Positions 3,063-21,089 of a stretch of 21,096 nucleotides of DNA are shown piece after piece. Both the position numbers and the translations under genes were made by a program. Under the pieces are notes generated by a model. It saw nothing but the letters and a program-made list of their open reading frames with translations, was not told the origin of the DNA and did no database searches. How positions within the stretch are numbered: position 1 is the first letter of the stretch; each line of letters begins with the position of its first letter. Source of the DNA: a virus; IMG/VR virus record IMGVR_UViG_3300046665_000283, positions 1 through 21,096 of that record; one strand, 5' to 3'.

Positions 3063-4763
3063 TTAAGCTGGCTCAAAGATTTCGTAAGCAACCGTCGAAG
3101 TGTCCGATGCGCTGCCGCTGGTGATCGTGAAACTGGTGCCGGCCACGCGCGCCGATACCCGCAGGAAGCCTGGCGTGCCGCCATCCGATTGCGACGTGAG
3201 GAAGATCCGGCTGTTGGCCGTCACCGACGTATTTGCCACCGTCACGGTGCCGCCCACCAGCGTTGCAGTACCCTGCTTTGCGTTGCTTCCCTCCTTGACC
3301 CGCAGGCCGGCGCCCACGCGCATTACCAGCGCATTACCGGACGCATCCAGCGACAGCGTGTCGGCCATCGCATCGGATGCGCGGGCGCGGAACGTGATCG
3401 TGCTGCCGGTCAGGTTGGAATTGGTTGGGGCGACGACAATTTCAGCGGTATTCTTGAGGCTGTTGATGGTGTCCCGGCCACGCGCCACCATCGTGATCGT
3501 TTTTGTCGTCACGCCGGCGGTGCTGGCGTTTTCCATCACCAGCGCATTCAGGCCGGTCGAAGAGTCGGCCTTGAACGTGCCGCCGGCGCCGAAGATCGCG
3601 CCATACGCGTCGACGTGGAACAGGGTTGTCGAGTTCACGCCATCCACGCCACGGATCAGGTAACCCGATGGCGACGTATCGGTGAACCGCTGTAGCATCA
3701 GGGTTTCGCCGCCGTTGACAAGCTGCTTGAACGACGCTGCCGCGCTCGGCTGCGCCGATGGATCGCCAACGATAACACCCTGCGTGAGTCCGCTGGTGTT
3801 GCGTACCTTGATGCCGGTAATCGCCTGCATGATGTCGACGCCGACATTCCAGCGGGTCGCATCGGTGCGGATCAGTTCAATGCCGACATCGGGATTGGCC
3901 GAGCCTACGCCATTGATGCTCAAACCCTTGACCAGCGCCGCATCGGAAAAGCAGTCCACGTCCAGCTCGATGCCCTGGTAGGTGCCGCCCGCGCCAGCCG
4001 CCGCGTTGATGAGCGCATTGATCGCCCACACGTTCGCGCCCGCATTCGCGTTCGATCCCTGCGCGCCGGCATACAGTGCCACGCTCTGCCCCACCACATC
4101 GGCGGGCTGGATCATTTCGGCCTGAAACGCTGCTACACCGCCATTGCTCAGTGTGTAGGGAATCCGCGACTGCGACTGGATATACGGGCCGACCGCGATC
4201 TGTCCGCCGTTGGTACGCATCGACGGGAATTTGTTCTGGCCGGTGCCGGCGCCCGTAAAGGTTGCCGCCGTGCTGATATCCCAATGAATCGATTTGGCGC
4301 CAGGAGCCGGCGTGGTCGCCAGCACATAGGACTTGGCTGGCACAAGGATTTTACCGCCCAGCGCCGGCAGCGCATCGATGGCGCGCTGGAAGGACAGCGA
4401 ATCGTCAGGATCGCCCGCAGCCAGGTAATCGGCCACGCTGATGGATTCTTGCAGCTTGTCGAAGGCGCCGCGCTTGATGGCGCCGGCGCCGGTCTGGCGG
4501 TATTCGTTCGGATCGAACAGCGTCACATCGTTGTAGTTGATCGGCGTGATGCCGGTGCCGTTGACGGCGAAGCTGTAATGCCCGTTGGCCGCGTAAAACG
4601 CAAAGCGCCCGTTCTGGTCGGTCAGCACGAAGGCCACGGCAGGACCGCCATCGGCGGCATAGATCGTGGCCGGCTGGCCGTCCGGGTAGGTGATGACGGT
4701 AATCGTGGCGCCATTGATCGCCTTGCCACTCTTGTCGAGTACGACGTCAGAATACTTTTGCAT
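3063..4763 (-). CDS. Tail spike or fibre with beta-helix domain
   Basis: The protein is 566 residues. Residues 1-80 look like a CarboxypepD-reg or Ig-like domain (DVVLDKSGKAINGATITVIT, then DQNGRFAFYAANGHYSF), a known virion-anchoring head of tail spikes. Residues 105-160 carry a pectate-lyase-type start (SLSFQRAIDALPALGGKILV), which begins the right-handed beta-helix of many depolymerase spikes. The middle is rich in Gly, Asn and Thr. The last 70 residues (GTATLVGGTVTVANTSVTAN, then SRIFLT and FTITSG) match the beta-rich trimerising end common in phage spikes. The enzymatic substrate cannot be read from sequence. The start overlaps the previous stop as TGATG, with a GAAGGG ribosome site. It is unusual to find the receptor-binding gene between the capsid and the adaptor genes. 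Confidence 0.8.
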   Translation of the reverse strand: MQKYSDVVLDKSGKAINGATITVITYPDGQPATIYAADGGPAVAFVLTDQNGRFAFYAANGHYSFAVNGTGITPINYNDVTLFDPNEYRQTGAGAIKRGAFDKLQESISVADYLAAGDPDDSLSFQRAIDALPALGGKILVPAKSYVLATTPAPGAKSIHWDISTAATFTGAGTGQNKFPSMRTNGGQIAVGPYIQSQSRIPYTLSNGGVAAFQAEMIQPADVVGQSVALYAGAQGSNANAGANVWAINALINAAAGAGGTYQGIELDVDCFSDAALVKGLSINGVGSANPDVGIELIRTDATRWNVGVDIMQAITGIKVRNTSGLTQGVIVGDPSAQPSAAASFKQLVNGGETLMLQRFTDTSPSGYLIRGVDGVNSTTLFHVDAYGAIFGAGGTFKADSSTGLNALVMENASTAGVTTKTITMVARGRDTINSLKNTAEIVVAPTNSNLTGSTITFRARASDAMADTLSLDASGNALVMRVGAGLRVKEGSNAKQGTATLVGGTVTVANTSVTANSRIFLTSQSDGGTPGFLRVSARVAGTSFTITSGSASDTSTVAYEIFEPA

Positions 4764-6098: not shown

Positions 6099-7052
6099 TT
6101 AGAGAGAAGCGCCCAGCAGCGCGGCAAAGTCTTTGACTGAGCCAGTCTGCGCGAGGCGGTTTTTCAGTTTTTCGGTACGTTGCTCGGCCACGGGTTTCGC
6201 GGCAGGAGCAGGTTTCGCGGCCTTGGTCGGCAATGCCGATACCTTCTTGACCGCCTGTTTCGTTTCTGCTTGCGTCTTGTCGTAGGCGCTGGCCTTGTAC
6301 AGGGCTTCCATCACGCGCTTGTCGGCAATCGCTGCCAACTCCTGCGCATTGAAGCCGAGTTTCAGGCCGAAGTCTTTCATCTGCTCCAGGTGCTGCTTGC
6401 CGAAGCCAGGAACCACAGTCGCCATGTGCGCGGCTGCTTCCTTGGTCTGCGTGGCAAACGTTTCCTGTTGCTTGGCCGTTAGCTGCTGCTGCTTCTGGCC
6501 GATCTGGTTTACCACATCGCCACGGCGCGCGCGCAGATCGTTGAACTCGGCCAGGTGCGTGCTGTACGAGAGCGGATCTTCTGCCCTCAGTCGCTGCCAG
6601 TCCACGTTCTGATACTGCTGCAAGGTGGCGTCGATCTGGTGCAGTTGGCCGAGTTCCCTCGACATCTGCGTGACCGATTCCATCTGCGCCTTGACGAATT
6701 CCGCCTGATCCTGCTTTTCGCGGGCGAGGTTCTGTGCCTTCTGCGTGTAGTCCTGCTGGCGCAGGTAGCCGGCCTTTACCTCGTCCTTGGTCAGCGCGAC
6801 TTTCTCGCCGTCGATTTCCAGCTCGATCACATCTTTGGACGAGTCCGTTTCCGGTTGTTCGTCCTGCGCTTCGTCTTCCCCTTCGCTTTCCTCTTGCGAT
6901 TCCTGCTCGGGTTCGTCCTGCGCGGTGTCCTCGCTGTTTTCCTGGTCGTCGTCGGCGCTTTGCGAGTCCGTTTCCGGTTGTTCGTTATCGCCTTCTCCGC
7001 CCAGCATCGATGCGAAACTGTCGGTGGTCAGTGCTTCAGTGGTGTCACTCAA
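6099..7052 (-). CDS. Capsid scaffold protein
   Basis: The gene is best started at the TTG at 7052. A GGAGA ribosome site lies just upstream, and the resulting protein (317 residues, MSDTTEALTTDSFASMLGGE) begins like other scaffolds. The open frame continues upstream to 7112, but no ribosome site fits there. The N-terminal third is very acidic and Glu/Asp/Gln-rich, roughly residues 15-80. A beta segment follows (DVIELEIDGEKVALTKDEVK), then GYLRQQDYTQKAQNLAREKQ, which is a signature of many phage scaffold proteins. The rest is a long helical coiled coil, and the C-terminus is Lys/Ala/Pro-rich and ends with a basic helix that could bind the capsid protein. It directly precedes the major capsid gene. 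I recognise no protease in the window. Confidence 0.85.
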   Translation of the reverse strand: MSDTTEALTTDSFASMLGGEGDNEQPETDSQSADDDQENSEDTAQDEPEQESQEESEGEDEAQDEQPETDSSKDVIELEIDGEKVALTKDEVKAGYLRQQDYTQKAQNLAREKQDQAEFVKAQMESVTQMSRELGQLHQIDATLQQYQNVDWQRLRAEDPLSYSTHLAEFNDLRARRGDVVNQIGQKQQQLTAKQQETFATQTKEAAAHMATVVPGFGKQHLEQMKDFGLKLGFNAQELAAIADKRVMEALYKASAYDKTQAETKQAVKKVSALPTKAAKPAPAAKPVAEQRTEKLKNRLAQTGSVKDFAALLGASL

Positions 7053-15099: not shown

Positions 15100-15266
15100 C
15101 ACCAACACCCGATCAGATCAGGACAGTTCGCCAGTCGGCGGGCTTGTCGCAGACCGCAGCCGCTACCCTGATTTACTCCACCCTGCGCACCTGGCAGGAC
15201 TGGGAAGCAGGTAAGGCCAAGATGCACGCCGGCCTGTGGGAACTGTTTCAAATCAAGACGCAATGA
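15096..15266 (+). CDS. Xre-like helix-turn-helix regulator
   Basis: This 56-residue protein overlaps the previous stop as ATGA. The sequence (MTPTPDQIRTVRQSAGLSQT, then AAATLIYSTLRTWQDWEAGK, then AKMHAGLWELFQIKTQ) has the RTWQDWEAG pattern of small Xre-type DNA-binding proteins, where the recognition helix is followed by the W-x-x-WE-x-G motif. It lacks room for a second domain, so it may act as a dimer with a short dimerisation end. It is the last gene of an operon diverging from the late genes, which suggests it regulates the operator region at 14590-14636. The link is inferred from position. The TGA stop overlaps the A run that forms the T-tract of the opposing terminator. Confidence 0.75.
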   Translation: MTPTPDQIRTVRQSAGLSQTAAATLIYSTLRTWQDWEAGKAKMHAGLWELFQIKTQ

Positions 15267-15291
15267 AAAAAAGCCCGCTGGTTGCGCGGGC
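15266..15291 (-). terminator. Strong intrinsic terminator of the minus-strand transcript
   Basis: On the minus strand, GCCCGC pairs with GCGGGC around a seven-base centre and runs straight into seven T. It closes the noncoding RNA region. On the plus strand no T run follows, so it serves the minus strand only. Its T run overlaps the stop of the plus-strand HTH gene. Confidence 0.85.
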
Positions 15292-15381
15292 CAAGCTCTG
15301 CTACGGGAAAGGGTTGTGGTGCCGTCCACAAGTTCCGGTTCGTTTCGACGGCGCTACCGGCTTGCACAGCTTACGCTGCTA

Positions 15382-15505
15382 CCACACAGCATGAGGCAGG
15401 AATCGAACCTGCATCTACGGCCGGGAACCCCCAACCCCCATCCCGGAATCGAACCGGTCGCGCGAGACATTTGAAACGCGCTATGCCAACGCCCATGTTG
15501 TGTGG
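15382..15505 (-). ncRNA. tRNA-like domain with two T-arm-like hairpins
   Basis: Two hairpins carry the universal T-loop sequence TTCGATT: one with a five-pair GCAGG/CCTGC stem (15396-15412), one with CCGG/CCGG (15443-15457). A closing helix pairs CCACACA-A-CATGGG with a CTCATGC-TGTGTGG strand, which includes the seven positions expected of an acceptor stem (one A-C mismatch, one G-T wobble). A D-arm-like hairpin GCG-TTGGCATAG-CGC (15478-15492) has GG in the loop. The anticodon arm is not convincing: the loop TTTCAAA would read UCA, but its stem pairs poorly. The insert of about 50 bases between anticodon region and second T-arm is far too long for a normal tRNA. I therefore do not assign an amino acid. 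Confidence 0.45.
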
Positions 15506-15789
15506 TGCTTGTCTTTCCAAGCTGCCATCCGGTCTTTGTGCAGTACCGAAACTCTGCTGTGGTGGCCAGTGCTGATCTCCGGCTTCGCGATTTATCGAGG
15601 GCATCGCGTGGCCCCTAGCGCATCAGCCTGCGCATTCACCACACGACTGCACCCTGGAAGCGGCTGTTATGCCACCTTATCGAAGAACACAGGGCGCATG
15701 CGTGTGGCCCCTAAAAAGTCCCGGCGCGCTTTTCAGCAGCGACCGGGTAAAGTCCAAACTAGGGGAAAGCGTCTGAAAGAGACAGCCTC

Positions 15790-17504: not shown

Positions 17505-17656
17505 GCGAAGCTCCGTTTCACCTGGGGCCTTGCCCACCACAGATCGAGCGCGAACAGCGCCACGGTTTGCGCCATGATCCACCAGGCCCATGCTGGATCA
17601 ATCAGCCATTCCAGGCACAGTACCGCGCCAGCCAGCAGCATCAACAGGTTAGCCAT
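17501..17656 (-). CDS. Small two-span membrane protein
   Basis: This 51-residue gene is too short for most gene tables. Its ATG overlaps the helicase stop (TGATG), and its stop overlaps the next start (ATGA). It encodes MANLLMLLAGAVLCLEWLID, then PAWAWWIMAQTVALFALDLW, then WARPQVKRSFA. Two hydrophobic spans, about 2-18 and 23-41, are followed by a basic end. It looks like a small inner-membrane peptide. It is not next to a recognisable lysis gene, so a holin call is not justified. Confidence 0.7.
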   Translation of the reverse strand: MANLLMLLAGAVLCLEWLIDPAWAWWIMAQTVALFALDLWWARPQVKRSFA

Positions 17657-19032
17657 CAGTTAAACCCGCCGCGGCGTTCACCCTGTCGGCGATCCGATGC
17701 CGATTCTTTCCTTGCCGGCGTCCAGCGATACGGCAGGTCATCGAAGCGCGTCAGGTGGCCGGTGTAGCGCATCCCAATCGTGCCGGGTTCGCCCTGGCGC
17801 TGCTTGGCAAGAATCCATTCACAGACTTCGCGCTCGTCGCCGGTCAATTCAGTGTTGTAGACGACTTCGCGGTACAGGAAAATGATGTTGGCGGCGTCCT
17901 GCTCAATCGACCCCGATACCGCAAGGTCGGCCAGGATCGGGCGCTTGTTCGGCCTTTCCTCGCACTTCCGGTTGAGCTGGCAAAGCAGGATGATGGCGCA
18001 GTCCAGTTCCTTCGACAGCGCAACCAGTGCGCGCGTGTACTCGCCCACCACTTCGTAACTCTTGTCGGACTGGCCGCCAGTGATGAACGAGAGTTGGTCG
18101 ACCACGATCAGATCCAGCCCCGCCTTGCGCTTGACGGCACGGGCCTTGGCGCGGATCTCCATCATGTTCAGCCCGGTTTCGTCATCAATGAACAGGTTCA
18201 TGTCGCGCGCCTTGTGGAAAGCTGCCGTCATGGTGTCCCAATACATCGAGTCTTCCGGCTTGTTGTCGCTTGGCTTGCGCAGCCACTTGATCGGCACCCG
18301 GCCCAGCGCCGCCACGTTGCGGTCGCTGACCTGATGGCGCGACATTTCCATCGAGAAGAACAGTGCGGAGCCATCCATCGACACGTTGCGCGCCACGCCT
18401 AACCCTGCTGCCGTCTTGCCCATGCCCGGCCTGCCGGCGATGATCGTCAGTGTGCCACGCTCCAGTCCGCCGTCCAGTTGCTCGTCCAGGTGCTCATGCC
18501 CGGTAGAGATTGGCTTGATGGCGCCGTTCATGCGCTGGGTCAGCACGTCCGCATAGTCGCCCAGCATTTCATCGATCCGCATCGGGTCGCGGCTGGTTTT
18601 CTTGTGCGCCAGGTCTTCCAGCCGGGAAGCTGCCAGATCGACGCATACGGCTGCCGATTGCGGCGAGGCTGCCATTTCCCGCATTTGGTCCGAAAGCGCC
18701 AGCAGCGCCCGTTTAGACGCCCTGTCGATGATGATTGACGTGTGGCGAGTGATGTTGGCGGCGCTGACGGACGACTGGCGCAGTTGGGCAAGGTATTTCA
18801 GGCAATCTTCAACCTTGTCTTTCAGCTTCTCGAAAACGGTAATGGCGTCAGCGCGCTGGCCAGCGGCGATCTGGCGGCACAGTTCGTCAAAAATCAGGCG
18901 GTGGTCCTGCCGGTAGAAGTGGTTCGCTTCCAGGTCGGCAATCCGGTCGAGTGAGTCATTGTCAGCCAGCAGGGCGCCCAGCACGGCCTGTTCTGCACGG
19001 ATGGATACGGTGTGGTCTTCGTGGTCGATCAT
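17656..19032 (-). CDS. dnaB: Replicative DNA helicase, DnaB-type
   Basis: The protein is 458 residues, standard for phage DnaB helicases. Residues 1-140 hold the DnaB N-terminal domain (SIRAEQAVLGALLADNDSLD, then EANHFYRQDHRLIFDEL). The RecA core begins around 175 (ISTGHEHLDEQLDGGLERGT) with Walker A GRPGMGKT at 200-207 and Walker B DLIVVDQLS at 307-315. The motif LLCQLNR, a sensor-like strand, is at about 349-355. The segment GSIEQDAANIIFLYRE near 374-389 is a classic DnaB core motif. The protein unwinds the fork as a hexamer, likely loaded by the protein encoded just upstream. It lies directly after that gene. Confidence 0.93.
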   Translation of the reverse strand: MIDHEDHTVSIRAEQAVLGALLADNDSLDRIADLEANHFYRQDHRLIFDELCRQIAAGQRADAITVFEKLKDKVEDCLKYLAQLRQSSVSAANITRHTSIIIDRASKRALLALSDQMREMAASPQSAAVCVDLAASRLEDLAHKKTSRDPMRIDEMLGDYADVLTQRMNGAIKPISTGHEHLDEQLDGGLERGTLTIIAGRPGMGKTAAGLGVARNVSMDGSALFFSMEMSRHQVSDRNVAALGRVPIKWLRKPSDNKPEDSMYWDTMTAAFHKARDMNLFIDDETGLNMMEIRAKARAVKRKAGLDLIVVDQLSFITGGQSDKSYEVVGEYTRALVALSKELDCAIILLCQLNRKCEERPNKRPILADLAVSGSIEQDAANIIFLYREVVYNTELTGDEREVCEWILAKQRQGEPGTIGMRYTGHLTRFDDLPYRWTPARKESASDRRQGERRGGFN

Positions 19033-19033
19033 T

Positions 19034-19801
19034 TTATTTTTTATCCCTGTGAACGTTTTGTGCCTGCACGCCGTCAGTCGTCAAATGGAAACCACTTCCA
19101 TCCTTGGCTGCGTACCATAAGTGAAACCAATTCCCGCGCACCGACTTGGAAAACACTGTGCGCCATTCCGTGTACTTCTTTTTGCCGTCAGAGTAACGGT
19201 CCTTGAACTCAAGCCAGTGCAGCGACAGGAACTCATCCGGTATGCCGGCCTGCGAAGCGTAAGCAAAGACAGGATGCTCGTTAGGGATTGGGGTTTCGCC
19301 TGCTTCCTTGCAGCGCTTCATGAATTCAGGGAACGTGATACTTCTTGCCCTCCCGGTTGCCCCCTCGGGGGGTATGGGGGGATTTTTTATTTCTTCTCTT
19401 CTCTTCTCTTCTCTGGTCCGCTTTTTGTCCGCACCGGATGCGGACGATTCTGCGGACTTCTTGCGGTCGTTACGCTTTCGTTCAGCCTCTTGCGCACGGC
19501 GCTTGGCAGACTGCCCGTTATGCTCATCGAAACGAGGTGTGCAGAGTGAAACCCCATCGTTTTCAAGCCACTCAACGGCCACCATTGCTGCCGAAAATCC
19601 AGGCCAGGCAATGTCTTCGTCCAGTGTTTCGACCGTATATCCATCAAGCCGTCCGTCAGCAGAGTGCGCGTCAAACAGACACCAGACCGCATGCAATCCG
19701 CCAATCACGCGCAATCTGTCCGCTTTCAATGCGGACGCGATGCGGACAACCTTTGGATGCGTGCGAAGATCCATCCTCATCTTGATCCAGTCACCCGCCA
19801 T
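19034..19801 (-). CDS. Replication initiator or helicase-loader-like protein
   Basis: This 255-residue protein has a GGAG ribosome site eight bases upstream. The N-terminal 110 residues (DWIKMRMDLRTHPKVVRIAS, then LRVIGGLHAVWCLFDAHSAD and WPGFSAAMVAVEWLENDGVS) match a common phage replication domain, winged-helix-like. A basic and Glu-rich linker follows (about 105-140). The C-terminal 90 residues (WLEFKDRYSDGKKKYTEWRT, then NWFHLWYAAKDG) resemble DnaT/O-type loader ends. The linker is encoded by a pentanucleotide repeat and by G-rich and A-rich runs, noted separately. Location directly before DnaB favours a loader or origin-binding role. Confidence 0.7.
   Translation of the reverse strand: MAGDWIKMRMDLRTHPKVVRIASALKADRLRVIGGLHAVWCLFDAHSADGRLDGYTVETLDEDIAWPGFSAAMVAVEWLENDGVSLCTPRFDEHNGQSAKRRAQEAERKRNDRKKSAESSASGADKKRTREEKRREEIKNPPIPPEGATGRARSITFPEFMKRCKEAGETPIPNEHPVFAYASQAGIPDEFLSLHWLEFKDRYSDGKKKYTEWRTVFSKSVRGNWFHLWYAAKDGSGFHLTTDGVQAQNVHRDKK
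19391..19414 (-). repeat. AGAGA pentanucleotide repeat in coding sequence
   Basis: Four AGAGA units and one AGAAA on the coding strand, encoding the EEKRREE linker of the replication protein. Five is not a multiple of three, so a change in copy number shifts the frame. Confidence 0.85.
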
Positions 19802-20333
19802 TTTTGATCTCCGAGGTGGACGGAAATTCAGTATCCAGGCCTACAAAGCGATTCGGAATGGGCTTGATCTCTACTTCAAGAAGCGTCGTCCGGTCCCAGT
19901 CTTGAAGCTGCCCGATGAGGGCTTCTGAGGAATGCACGTTGAGTGCGCACTCCAGTTCATTTGCCAAAATCCCAATGCGGAATGCATGTGGGCACTGCAT
20001 ATCAATTTTGTCCACGCCTGGATACCCATTAGCCCATCCGAGCAATAGATCCGCAATCTCGGCCCAACGCACGGAAGGAACGCATGCCAGCACGTCCATG
20101 ATTCTGGCTTTAGACTCATGCGTACTTTCATGGCAGTTCTCGCAAAGTGCGTCAAAGTTCGTGATGTCATACTCCCAAGCCATCCTCCCCTTGATGTATT
20201 GCTTGTGATGAACGTTCAAGGTTGTCTCATCATCGCCGCAGATCTGACACTTGAAGCCAGCCTTTTCAAACACCTTGAGGCGCATCCTTTGCCAGTTCGG
20301 GTGCCGCAGTTGTTCGCTGTACGTCATCTTCAT
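19791..20333 (-). CDS. HNH endonuclease-like protein
   Basis: This 180-residue protein overlaps the next gene by about ten bases. The HNH/zinc-finger core shows CQIC (29-32), then LNVHHKQYIKG (HH at 42-43), then CENCHESTH (Cys 64, Cys 67, His 68, His 72). This is the pattern of the HNH fold with a four-Cys zinc site. The rest (about 80-180) is helical and not recognised. Phage HNH proteins cut or nick DNA. Its place among replication genes could mean a role in DNA processing, and a homing role is less likely as it splits no gene. Confidence 0.75.
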   Translation of the reverse strand: MKMTYSEQLRHPNWQRMRLKVFEKAGFKCQICGDDETTLNVHHKQYIKGRMAWEYDITNFDALCENCHESTHESKARIMDVLACVPSVRWAEIADLLLGWANGYPGVDKIDMQCPHAFRIGILANELECALNVHSSEALIGQLQDWDRTTLLEVEIKPIPNRFVGLDTEFPSTSEIKNGG

Positions 20334-20578
20334 GGCTTCTTCCCTTCCTGGCTCATATCGTCAGCGATCCGGTCTGCACGGTCACGGATGACAGCGCGGC
20401 GGTCAATAATTTGCAACTCGTTCAAGCGCGCGCATTCATCCTCGGCCAGTGACTTGCTCTTGCTGGCGCCGGCCACGGTTCTAACGTGCGGCGCTCCCGG
20501 TGTTTCGTAGGTCAGCGTGTAGATGCCATCGGCATCAGGACCATCGACTCTGTATTCAAGCATTTTTCGTTTGCCCAT
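20330..20578 (-). CDS. Small unknown protein after a structured leader
   Basis: The 82-residue product starts MGKRKMLEYRVDGPDADGIY from the ATG at 20578. The frame could begin at a GTG at 20605, inside the closing stem of the hairpin, but no ribosome site fits that start. No ribosome site lies next to the ATG either, apart from a GGAGG on the far side of the stem. The product is charged, with helices at ASKSKSLAEDECARLNELQ and IIDRRAVIRDRADRIADDMS. The family is not recognised. The stop overlaps the next start. Confidence 0.6.
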   Translation of the reverse strand: MGKRKMLEYRVDGPDADGIYTLTYETPGAPHVRTVAGASKSKSLAEDECARLNELQIIDRRAVIRDRADRIADDMSQEGKKP

Positions 20579-20666
20579 AAAAAAAGGCTTCAAGTGCACC
20601 GTCACTCTTGCGAGCGTTGGCAGACAGGGTCACGAACCCTGCACGATGCACTTGAAGCCTCCGTGA
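20579..20666 (-). promoter_or_regulatory. Structured leader or small RNA with three-way junction and U-tract
   Basis: On the minus strand, a 14-pair stem (AGGCTTCAAGTGCA at 20647-20660 with its partner at 20585-20598) encloses two hairpins: CAGGGT-tcgtg-ACCCTG and a GC-rich hairpin with a GCAA tetraloop (CGCTC-GCAA-GAGTG). The stem is followed by seven T, and the ATG of the next gene comes immediately after. A GGAGG overlaps the 5-prime foot of the stem at 20658-20662. A promoter ends just upstream. Confidence 0.6.
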
Positions 20667-20723
20667 TATTAAATTGCCTGCCAAGGCAAGTCCAATTATC
20701 TCTTTTTGATTAACGACGCGCAA
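20666..20723 (-). promoter_or_regulatory. Two overlapping sigma70-like promoters with an internal inverted repeat
   Basis: Reading the minus strand, one pair is TTGCGC (20718-20723), 17 bases, GATAAT (20695-20700). A second is TTGGAC (20690-20695), 18 bases, TAATAT (20666-20671). The spacer of the second contains a perfect inverted repeat, TTGCCT-TGGC-AGGCAA (20674-20689), well placed for a repressor. Matches are partial, so one or both may be weak. Confidence 0.5.
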
Positions 20724-20735
20724 CAGAAGAATAAC

Positions 20736-20749
20736 CGTGACGCGTCACG
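20736..20749. repeat. Perfect 14-base palindrome CGTGACGCGTCACG
   Basis: Self-complementary, just past the stop of the winged-helix-like gene and 13 bases upstream of the -35 element TTGCGC. It could be an operator or the end of the preceding transcript. No T run follows it. Confidence 0.5.
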
Positions 20750-20753
20750 CAAA

Positions 20754-21089
20754 TTACAGGCCGAGCGCGGCGAACGGACTGGCGACCGGACGCGGCGAAT
20801 AGTTCAGCTTGCGGATCGGCATCCCCTGCCGGCGCCGGGCGTCATACTTCCATTCTGCCGGCGTCTTCGGCCTTGGCTGGCGTACGTTCTTGCCCTTGCC
20901 GAACCGGTACACCGGCCAGCGGTGGCCGTTGGCCTTCGGTTCCCGCCAGCCGCAACAATGCACCTTGTTCTTCGACACTAGATAGGCCATGTACGCCAGT
21001 ACCTTGCTCGGTGCGCTCATGTGGATACCTTGTGCAATCTGCGCCTGGTCGCGGTCGCCATCCAGCAACAGGTCGAGGATTTGCTTCAT
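20754..21089 (-). CDS. Winged-helix-like small protein
   Basis: This 111-residue protein starts close to the right edge. The N-terminal 50 residues (ILDLLLDGDRDQAQIAQGIH, then MSAPSKVLAYMAYLVSKNKV) look like a winged-helix or HTH: a helix, then a D/Q-rich turn, then the recognition helix, followed by the wing (VHCCGWREPKANGHRWPVYRFG). A basic Arg/Pro-rich C-terminus follows. Similar phage proteins carry a W-x-x-G-HRWPVYR-x-G wing and are taken for regulators. A role in controlling the early promoter downstream is possible from position. The true start may lie outside the window. Confidence 0.65.
   Translation of the reverse strand: MKQILDLLLDGDRDQAQIAQGIHMSAPSKVLAYMAYLVSKNKVHCCGWREPKANGHRWPVYRFGKGKNVRQPRPKTPAEWKYDARRRQGMPIRKLNYSPRPVASPFAALGL

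Follow-up and report, generated by a model that had tools for sequence, protein, structure and literature searches.

A branched hairpin before the replication operon of an epsilon15-type phage, possibly an intrinsic terminator/attenuator with a coupled leader frame

Background

The tR1 element of phage lambda is an intrinsic terminator situated between cro and cII. Other elements in phage leaders act at different steps: T4 gene 38 has a stem-bridged start, and leaders processed by RNase III include the lambda N leader and T7 early mRNA. A stop codon that overlaps the next start codon is the usual geometry for translational coupling. In Salmonella, a leader ORF of mgtCBR is reported to act as a transcription attenuator (PMC3641672). 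The c4 antisense RNA of P1/P7-like phages corresponds to Rfam family RF01695 (listed in PMC2864571).

We analyzed a 21,096-base virus record (the window) in which a branched hairpin precedes a set of replication genes. Like tR1-type terminators, this hairpin is GC-rich, is followed directly by seven U residues (U7) and lies between an early gene and a replication operon, and relatives repeatedly have compact terminators at the equivalent location. Unlike such terminators, it branches: the 40 nt separating the two arms of its outer stem fold as two hairpins. It also extends into the start region of the following operon and contains a ribosome site and a start codon. It shares with attenuators of the mgtCBR type a short leader frame whose translation would affect a stem-loop controlling downstream transcription. 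In the window, however, the frame is contained in the terminator hairpin and would be coupled by overlap to the first gene, and no convincing antiterminator fold was found in the window's leader. As with c4 RNA, the element is a phage RNA located upstream of an early gene in the same transcript, and an upstream hairpin is possibly complementary to the downstream structure. Nonetheless, the element matches no Rfam model, including RF01695, either at the gathering threshold or in a permissive scan of the locus.

Structure and genomic setting

The RNA corresponding to positions 20570-20675 of the minus strand has a predicted minimum free energy (MFE) of -49.7 kcal/mol (z = -6.33; shuffle mean -27.9, sd 3.4), which was equaled by 0 of 200 shuffles. 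The plus strand folds less strongly (z = -4.51), which favors a minus-strand RNA. The branched structure is real at the coordinates given in Table 1, and the features reported in a preliminary description of this locus, namely the fold, U7, the ATG at 20578 that adjoins U7 on its 3' side, a GGAGG located 80 nt upstream of this ATG, and a TAATAT sequence, are all present on the minus strand. The 14-pair stem of that description is the unbroken Watson-Crick core of an outer stem whose full extent is larger (Table 1), and three U's of U7 are able to pair within this outer stem.

Downstream of the element and on the same strand are, in order, a small gene, an HNH endonuclease gene, a replication initiator gene and a gene for a DnaB-like helicase. 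The ORF on the upstream side is, by its position alone, a possible early regulator. With this ORF upstream and replication genes downstream, the element occupies the leader of the replication operon.

Table 1. Positions of the leader element and of neighboring genes in the window
Feature	Position	Strand	Basis
Branched hairpin, whole	20583..20662	-	RNA fold and stem scan
Outer stem, 20 contiguous pairs including G-U	arms 20662-20643 with 20602-20583	-	RNA fold, stem scan
Hairpin 1, 8 pairs, 3-nt loop	20642-20624	-	RNA fold
Junction, 7 nt	20623-20617	-	RNA fold
Hairpin 2, 5 pairs, GCAA tetraloop	20616-20603	-	RNA fold
U7 tract directly 3' of stem, terminator-like tail	20579..20585	-	Sequence
GGAGG in 5' foot of stem	20658..20662	-	Anti-SD energy -9.5, mean unpaired probability 0.08
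Leader frame, 31 codons, GTG start, VHRAGFVTLSANARKSDGALEAFFYGQTKNA, runs through hairpin	20556..20651	-	Sequence and translation
Upstream hairpin UUGCCUUGGCAGGCAA	20674..20689	-	Scan
Upstream ORF, 111 aa, no family match	20754..21089	-	ORF list; Pfam and PHROGs blank
First operon gene, ~77 aa, MLEYRVDGP..., unnamed family	20330..20563	-	Alignment at its Met with relatives
HNH endonuclease gene, same operon	19791..20333	-	Pfam PF01844, PHROGs
Replication initiation protein, epsilon15 type	19034..19801	-	phrog_2509 (E 3e-61); phage matches
DnaB-like replicative helicase	17656..19032	-	Pfam PF03796, phrog_19

A hairpin upstream of the element includes the sequence UUGGCAGGCA, which can form 10 pairs with the element's junction strand UGUCUGCCAA (shuffle p 0.0016, found post hoc). 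A leader-junction pairing is the MFE structure only for transcripts of about 86-94 nt. Just past the upstream gene is a perfect 14-bp palindrome, CGTGACGCGTCACG (20736-20749), which is operator-like and occurs as one exact copy in the window; a search for repeated operator copies of the upstream palindromes yielded none that are convincing. Elsewhere in the window (region 15380-15507), a 14-bp inverted repeat, TACCACACAGCATG / CATGTTGTGTGGTG, has one arm overlapping a tRNA-Pro (15388-15463; anticodon GGG).

Leader frame and start of the small gene

The GGAGG sequence was previously described as the only ribosome site, situated far from the ATG at 20578. It is the sole strong ribosome site of the leader, but it has a partner of its own: a GTG at 20651 follows after 6 nt, which is an ideal spacing. 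This GTG was expected to be masked in the folded form, and it is indeed paired (unpaired probability 0.0). The stop codon of the leader frame (TGA at 20556) overlaps the ATG at 20563 of the small gene (ATGCTTGA). Since the leader peptide has no detectable homologue in phages, the argument for this frame is one of geometry.

Relatives of the small gene are found in L005, L015, L036, L043 and L156, and more distant ones in L092, L125, L171 and L173. The first Met of the aligned relatives, which begins the motif M-L-x-Y, corresponds to the second ATG in the window (20563), 15 nt past the U-tract and the ATG at 20578, and most relatives open exactly at this residue. Judged from this alignment, the ATG at 20578 that the preliminary description took as the start codon is probably wrong, and the family start is probably the ATG at 20563. 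The anti-SD energy before the conserved start is almost nil in the window (-2.4) and in L005 (-0.4), both of which carry a long stem there; the stem-less L036 and L156 have a strong ribosome site directly before the start (-11.1 and -11.6, respectively).

No Pfam or PHROGs match was found for the window's copy of the small protein. The family follows the pattern MLxYxVxGP...GxYxxxYxTPGAPHV and is uncharacterized, and its genes lie beside epsilon15-type replication initiators. A search for the family in the order to which a Duganella genome belongs recovered the known Duganella copy alone.

Terminator-like features

Intrinsic terminators typically have a stable stem, an immediate U-rich tail and a short loop of about 3-10 nt. 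The element has the first two of these features and, in place of the third, a 40-nt branched region. Although a short loop is typical of the family, it is not mechanistically required, and we therefore consider that the element works like a terminator. The window contains two T7 runs in total on either strand, and both end strong hairpins. The other run (15272-15266, minus strand) ends an ordinary compact terminator, GGCCCGCGCAACCAGCGGGCT (15266-15292).

Among 114 dereplicated relatives, we detected 35 compact sense terminators within 2.5 kb before the replication gene, using a scan that misses the window's own element. Roughly 21 of the 35 are located 300-950 nt upstream of the replication gene, and the window's element is at 778 nt, although this zone was picked after the data had been seen and antisense terminators are also frequent in it. 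By inspection, these terminators commonly follow the previous early gene and are often 30-110 nt before the next gene; a few abut a start codon. Lambda tR1 is arranged in this way. The top matches to a covariance model built on the outer stem and U-tract, beyond its two training sequences, were ordinary terminators, the best of which precedes the replication gene of a Cupriavidus prophage by 597 nt.

The attenuator half of an earlier proposal that the element is an attenuator or a short RNA is favored by U7, the strength of the stem and the recurrent terminators in relatives, but the short-RNA half gains no promoter support. The -10-like TAATAT (20671-20666) lies 4 nt before the stem, and is weak evidence because a sigma-70 promoter scan of the locus found no site above threshold.

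Related structures in other phages

Exact-arm and degenerate arm patterns revealed no relatives of the element in viral_contigs, and blastn searches of phages with the element gave only chance-level matches. A covariance model of the outer stem retrieved no further members, only ordinary terminators, from 186 sources, and retrieved nothing from 399 genomes in the order of the Duganella genome, a search run without a positive control. L002, which was considered as a relative, reflects a spurious protein match.

Two loci merit comparison. In L005, whose replication protein is 53% identical to that of the window, a perfect stem of 17 pairs encloses two inner hairpins and ends 4 nt before the ATG of the homologous small gene. 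No U-tract follows this stem, which is unrelated in sequence to that of the window, and its frame reads in phase with the small gene. In L107 (740-843), a 21-pair stem with a U-rich tail and a similar arm sequence, GAGNCUUNAAGUG, is at the same distance from an ATG as in the window, and the gene that follows encodes, as named from its sequence, a putative Rha-like regulator. L107 is the sole sequence that aligns with the window's stem, with two compensatory double changes in 13 pairs, and covariance-model searches indicate that the similarity is partly generic to any terminator stem. The RNA folding check proposed in the preliminary description gave a strong minus-strand fold; support from covariation is thin, as the collections searched yielded no close homologue.

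Both loci also have complementary upstream sequences. In L005 (1923-2074), the loop of an upstream hairpin, GCUAGUAAU, can form 7 pairs with the 9-nt loop of an inner hairpin, CAUUACUAA, a possible kissing interaction between two 9-nt loops (shuffle p 0.003-0.03, post hoc). In L107, 11 nt at the 5' foot, AUGAGGUAAGA, can pair without a mismatch with an inner loop, UCUUACCUCAU (p about 0.001 or less, post hoc). These observations raise the idea of a scattered group of phage leader RNAs that open early or replication operons. Each would combine a long duplex carrying inner arms with one foot rich in purines and a start codon at the opposite foot, plus an upstream segment able to pair with an internal loop or junction (10 pairs in the window, 7 in L005 and 11 in L107). 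Such RNAs would use a kissing or pseudoknot switch to control both termination and translation, and their sequences would diverge almost freely. We regard the existence of this class as improbable. A general class of long stems before an ATG was rejected as evidence in its own right: 22 of 213 stems in 186 loci have this arrangement, and our own rough estimate of the chance expectation is ~17. Because these figures are close, the L005 and L107 cases are suggestive only. Separately, L167 contains long inverted repeats of TTTACCAAAATGGTAAA-like palindromes (3452-3554 and 6559-6635) that resemble repeated operators.

Proposed mechanism and alternatives

Our preferred reading, to which we assign a probability of roughly 0.42, is that the element is a branched intrinsic (Rho-independent) terminator/attenuator in a tR1-like position, and that a leader frame coupled to the replication operon begins within its 5' arm. 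The fold, U7, the geometry of the GGAGG-GTG frame and its overlap, the family start codon and the matching position of terminators in relatives are observed directly. Since no close homologue was found, we infer the regulation and its direction, as well as actual termination, translation of the frame and coupling. When the hairpin forms, RNA polymerase would halt at U7 and the ribosome site would be masked, leaving the operon off. A ribosome translating the leader frame, which with its ribosome site overlaps the terminator, or the passage of an antiterminated polymerase, might keep the hairpin open so that transcription goes on. A ribosome terminating at the leader stop could then restart on the overlapping ATG, and the operon would be on. 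The 40-nt region between the arms, which is far larger than canonical terminator loops, counts against this reading, as do the unmatched leader peptide, the L005 stem with its missing U-tract and in-phase frame, the result of the promoter scan, and the post hoc choice of a zone in which antisense terminators are frequent.

A plain tR1-like terminator that yields only to read-through or to antitermination by the phage could instead end the upstream transcript. In that case the 31-codon frame would be incidental and the small gene weakly translated from its own start. This explanation is unlikely, but it accounts for all of the terminator evidence without the frame, and fits a leader peptide that is not conserved. 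It leaves unexplained the perfect GGAGG-6-GTG arrangement and the exact overlap of stop and start, and it deprives the small gene of a ribosome site.

The 20-pair duplex might alternatively be cut by RNase III to mature or activate the leader, with the U-tract being secondary. The presence of two duplex-rich leaders of similar length, one with a U-tract, before the same gene family in the window and L005 despite their unrelated sequences is consistent with such processing. We nevertheless consider it quite unlikely, as it leaves U7 unaccounted for, no site for RNase III is recognizable from the sequence, and the frequency of long stems close to start codons in these phages is about what chance would give.

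Two further explanations are slightly less probable still. An independent RNA of about 80 nt that starts from TAATAT, ends at U7 and acts in trans would make use of the -10-like sequence close to the stem and of a complete terminator-like 3' end. However, it has neither a promoter above threshold nor an Rfam family nor a sequence homologue, and with nearly all of its bases paired, little of it would be free to act. The other explanation stems from the observation that a run of T6 instead of T7 would make the leader frame continuous with the small gene: T7 might have arisen by misassembly or by a natural lesion, or might be a site of slippage, and the hairpin would be the structured coding 5' end of a longer, fused protein. 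L125 and L005 do carry in-frame N-terminal extensions ahead of the same Met, but these extensions share no clear similarity, and the start of most relatives exactly at the conserved Met argues against a frame broken by one base.

The preliminary description also suggested that the fold brings GGAGG beside the ATG at 20578, like the stem-bridged start of T4 gene 38, a proposal that we consider very improbable. As in gene 38, the ribosome site is on one side of the stem and an ATG on the other, and looping out the stem below GGAGG would reduce the effective spacing to this ATG to 9 nt; L005 likewise has a purine foot (AAGAG) with an ATG at the other foot. In contrast to gene 38, however, the GGAGG is paired, a GTG of its own stands at ideal spacing, the insert is far larger, and the conserved start is not at the foot but 15 nt further, so that its effective spacing is about 24 nt even with the stem looped out. 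The ribosome site in L005 is also very weak. Finally, a DNA-level replication or primosome site is not favored, as folding is stronger for the minus-strand RNA, which is followed by U7, than for the plus strand.

Conclusions

The element probably works as an on/off switch, and switches of this general type are known. If the terminator/attenuator reading is incorrect, it is a well-made but ordinary terminator. If that reading is correct, a single RNA structure would gate a phage replication operon by serving both as transcription terminator and as a mask for the ribosome site, and would be opened by translation of a 31-codon leader. Epsilon15-type phages would then be shown to have branched terminators, which predictors that limit loop size miss, at their tR1-like position.
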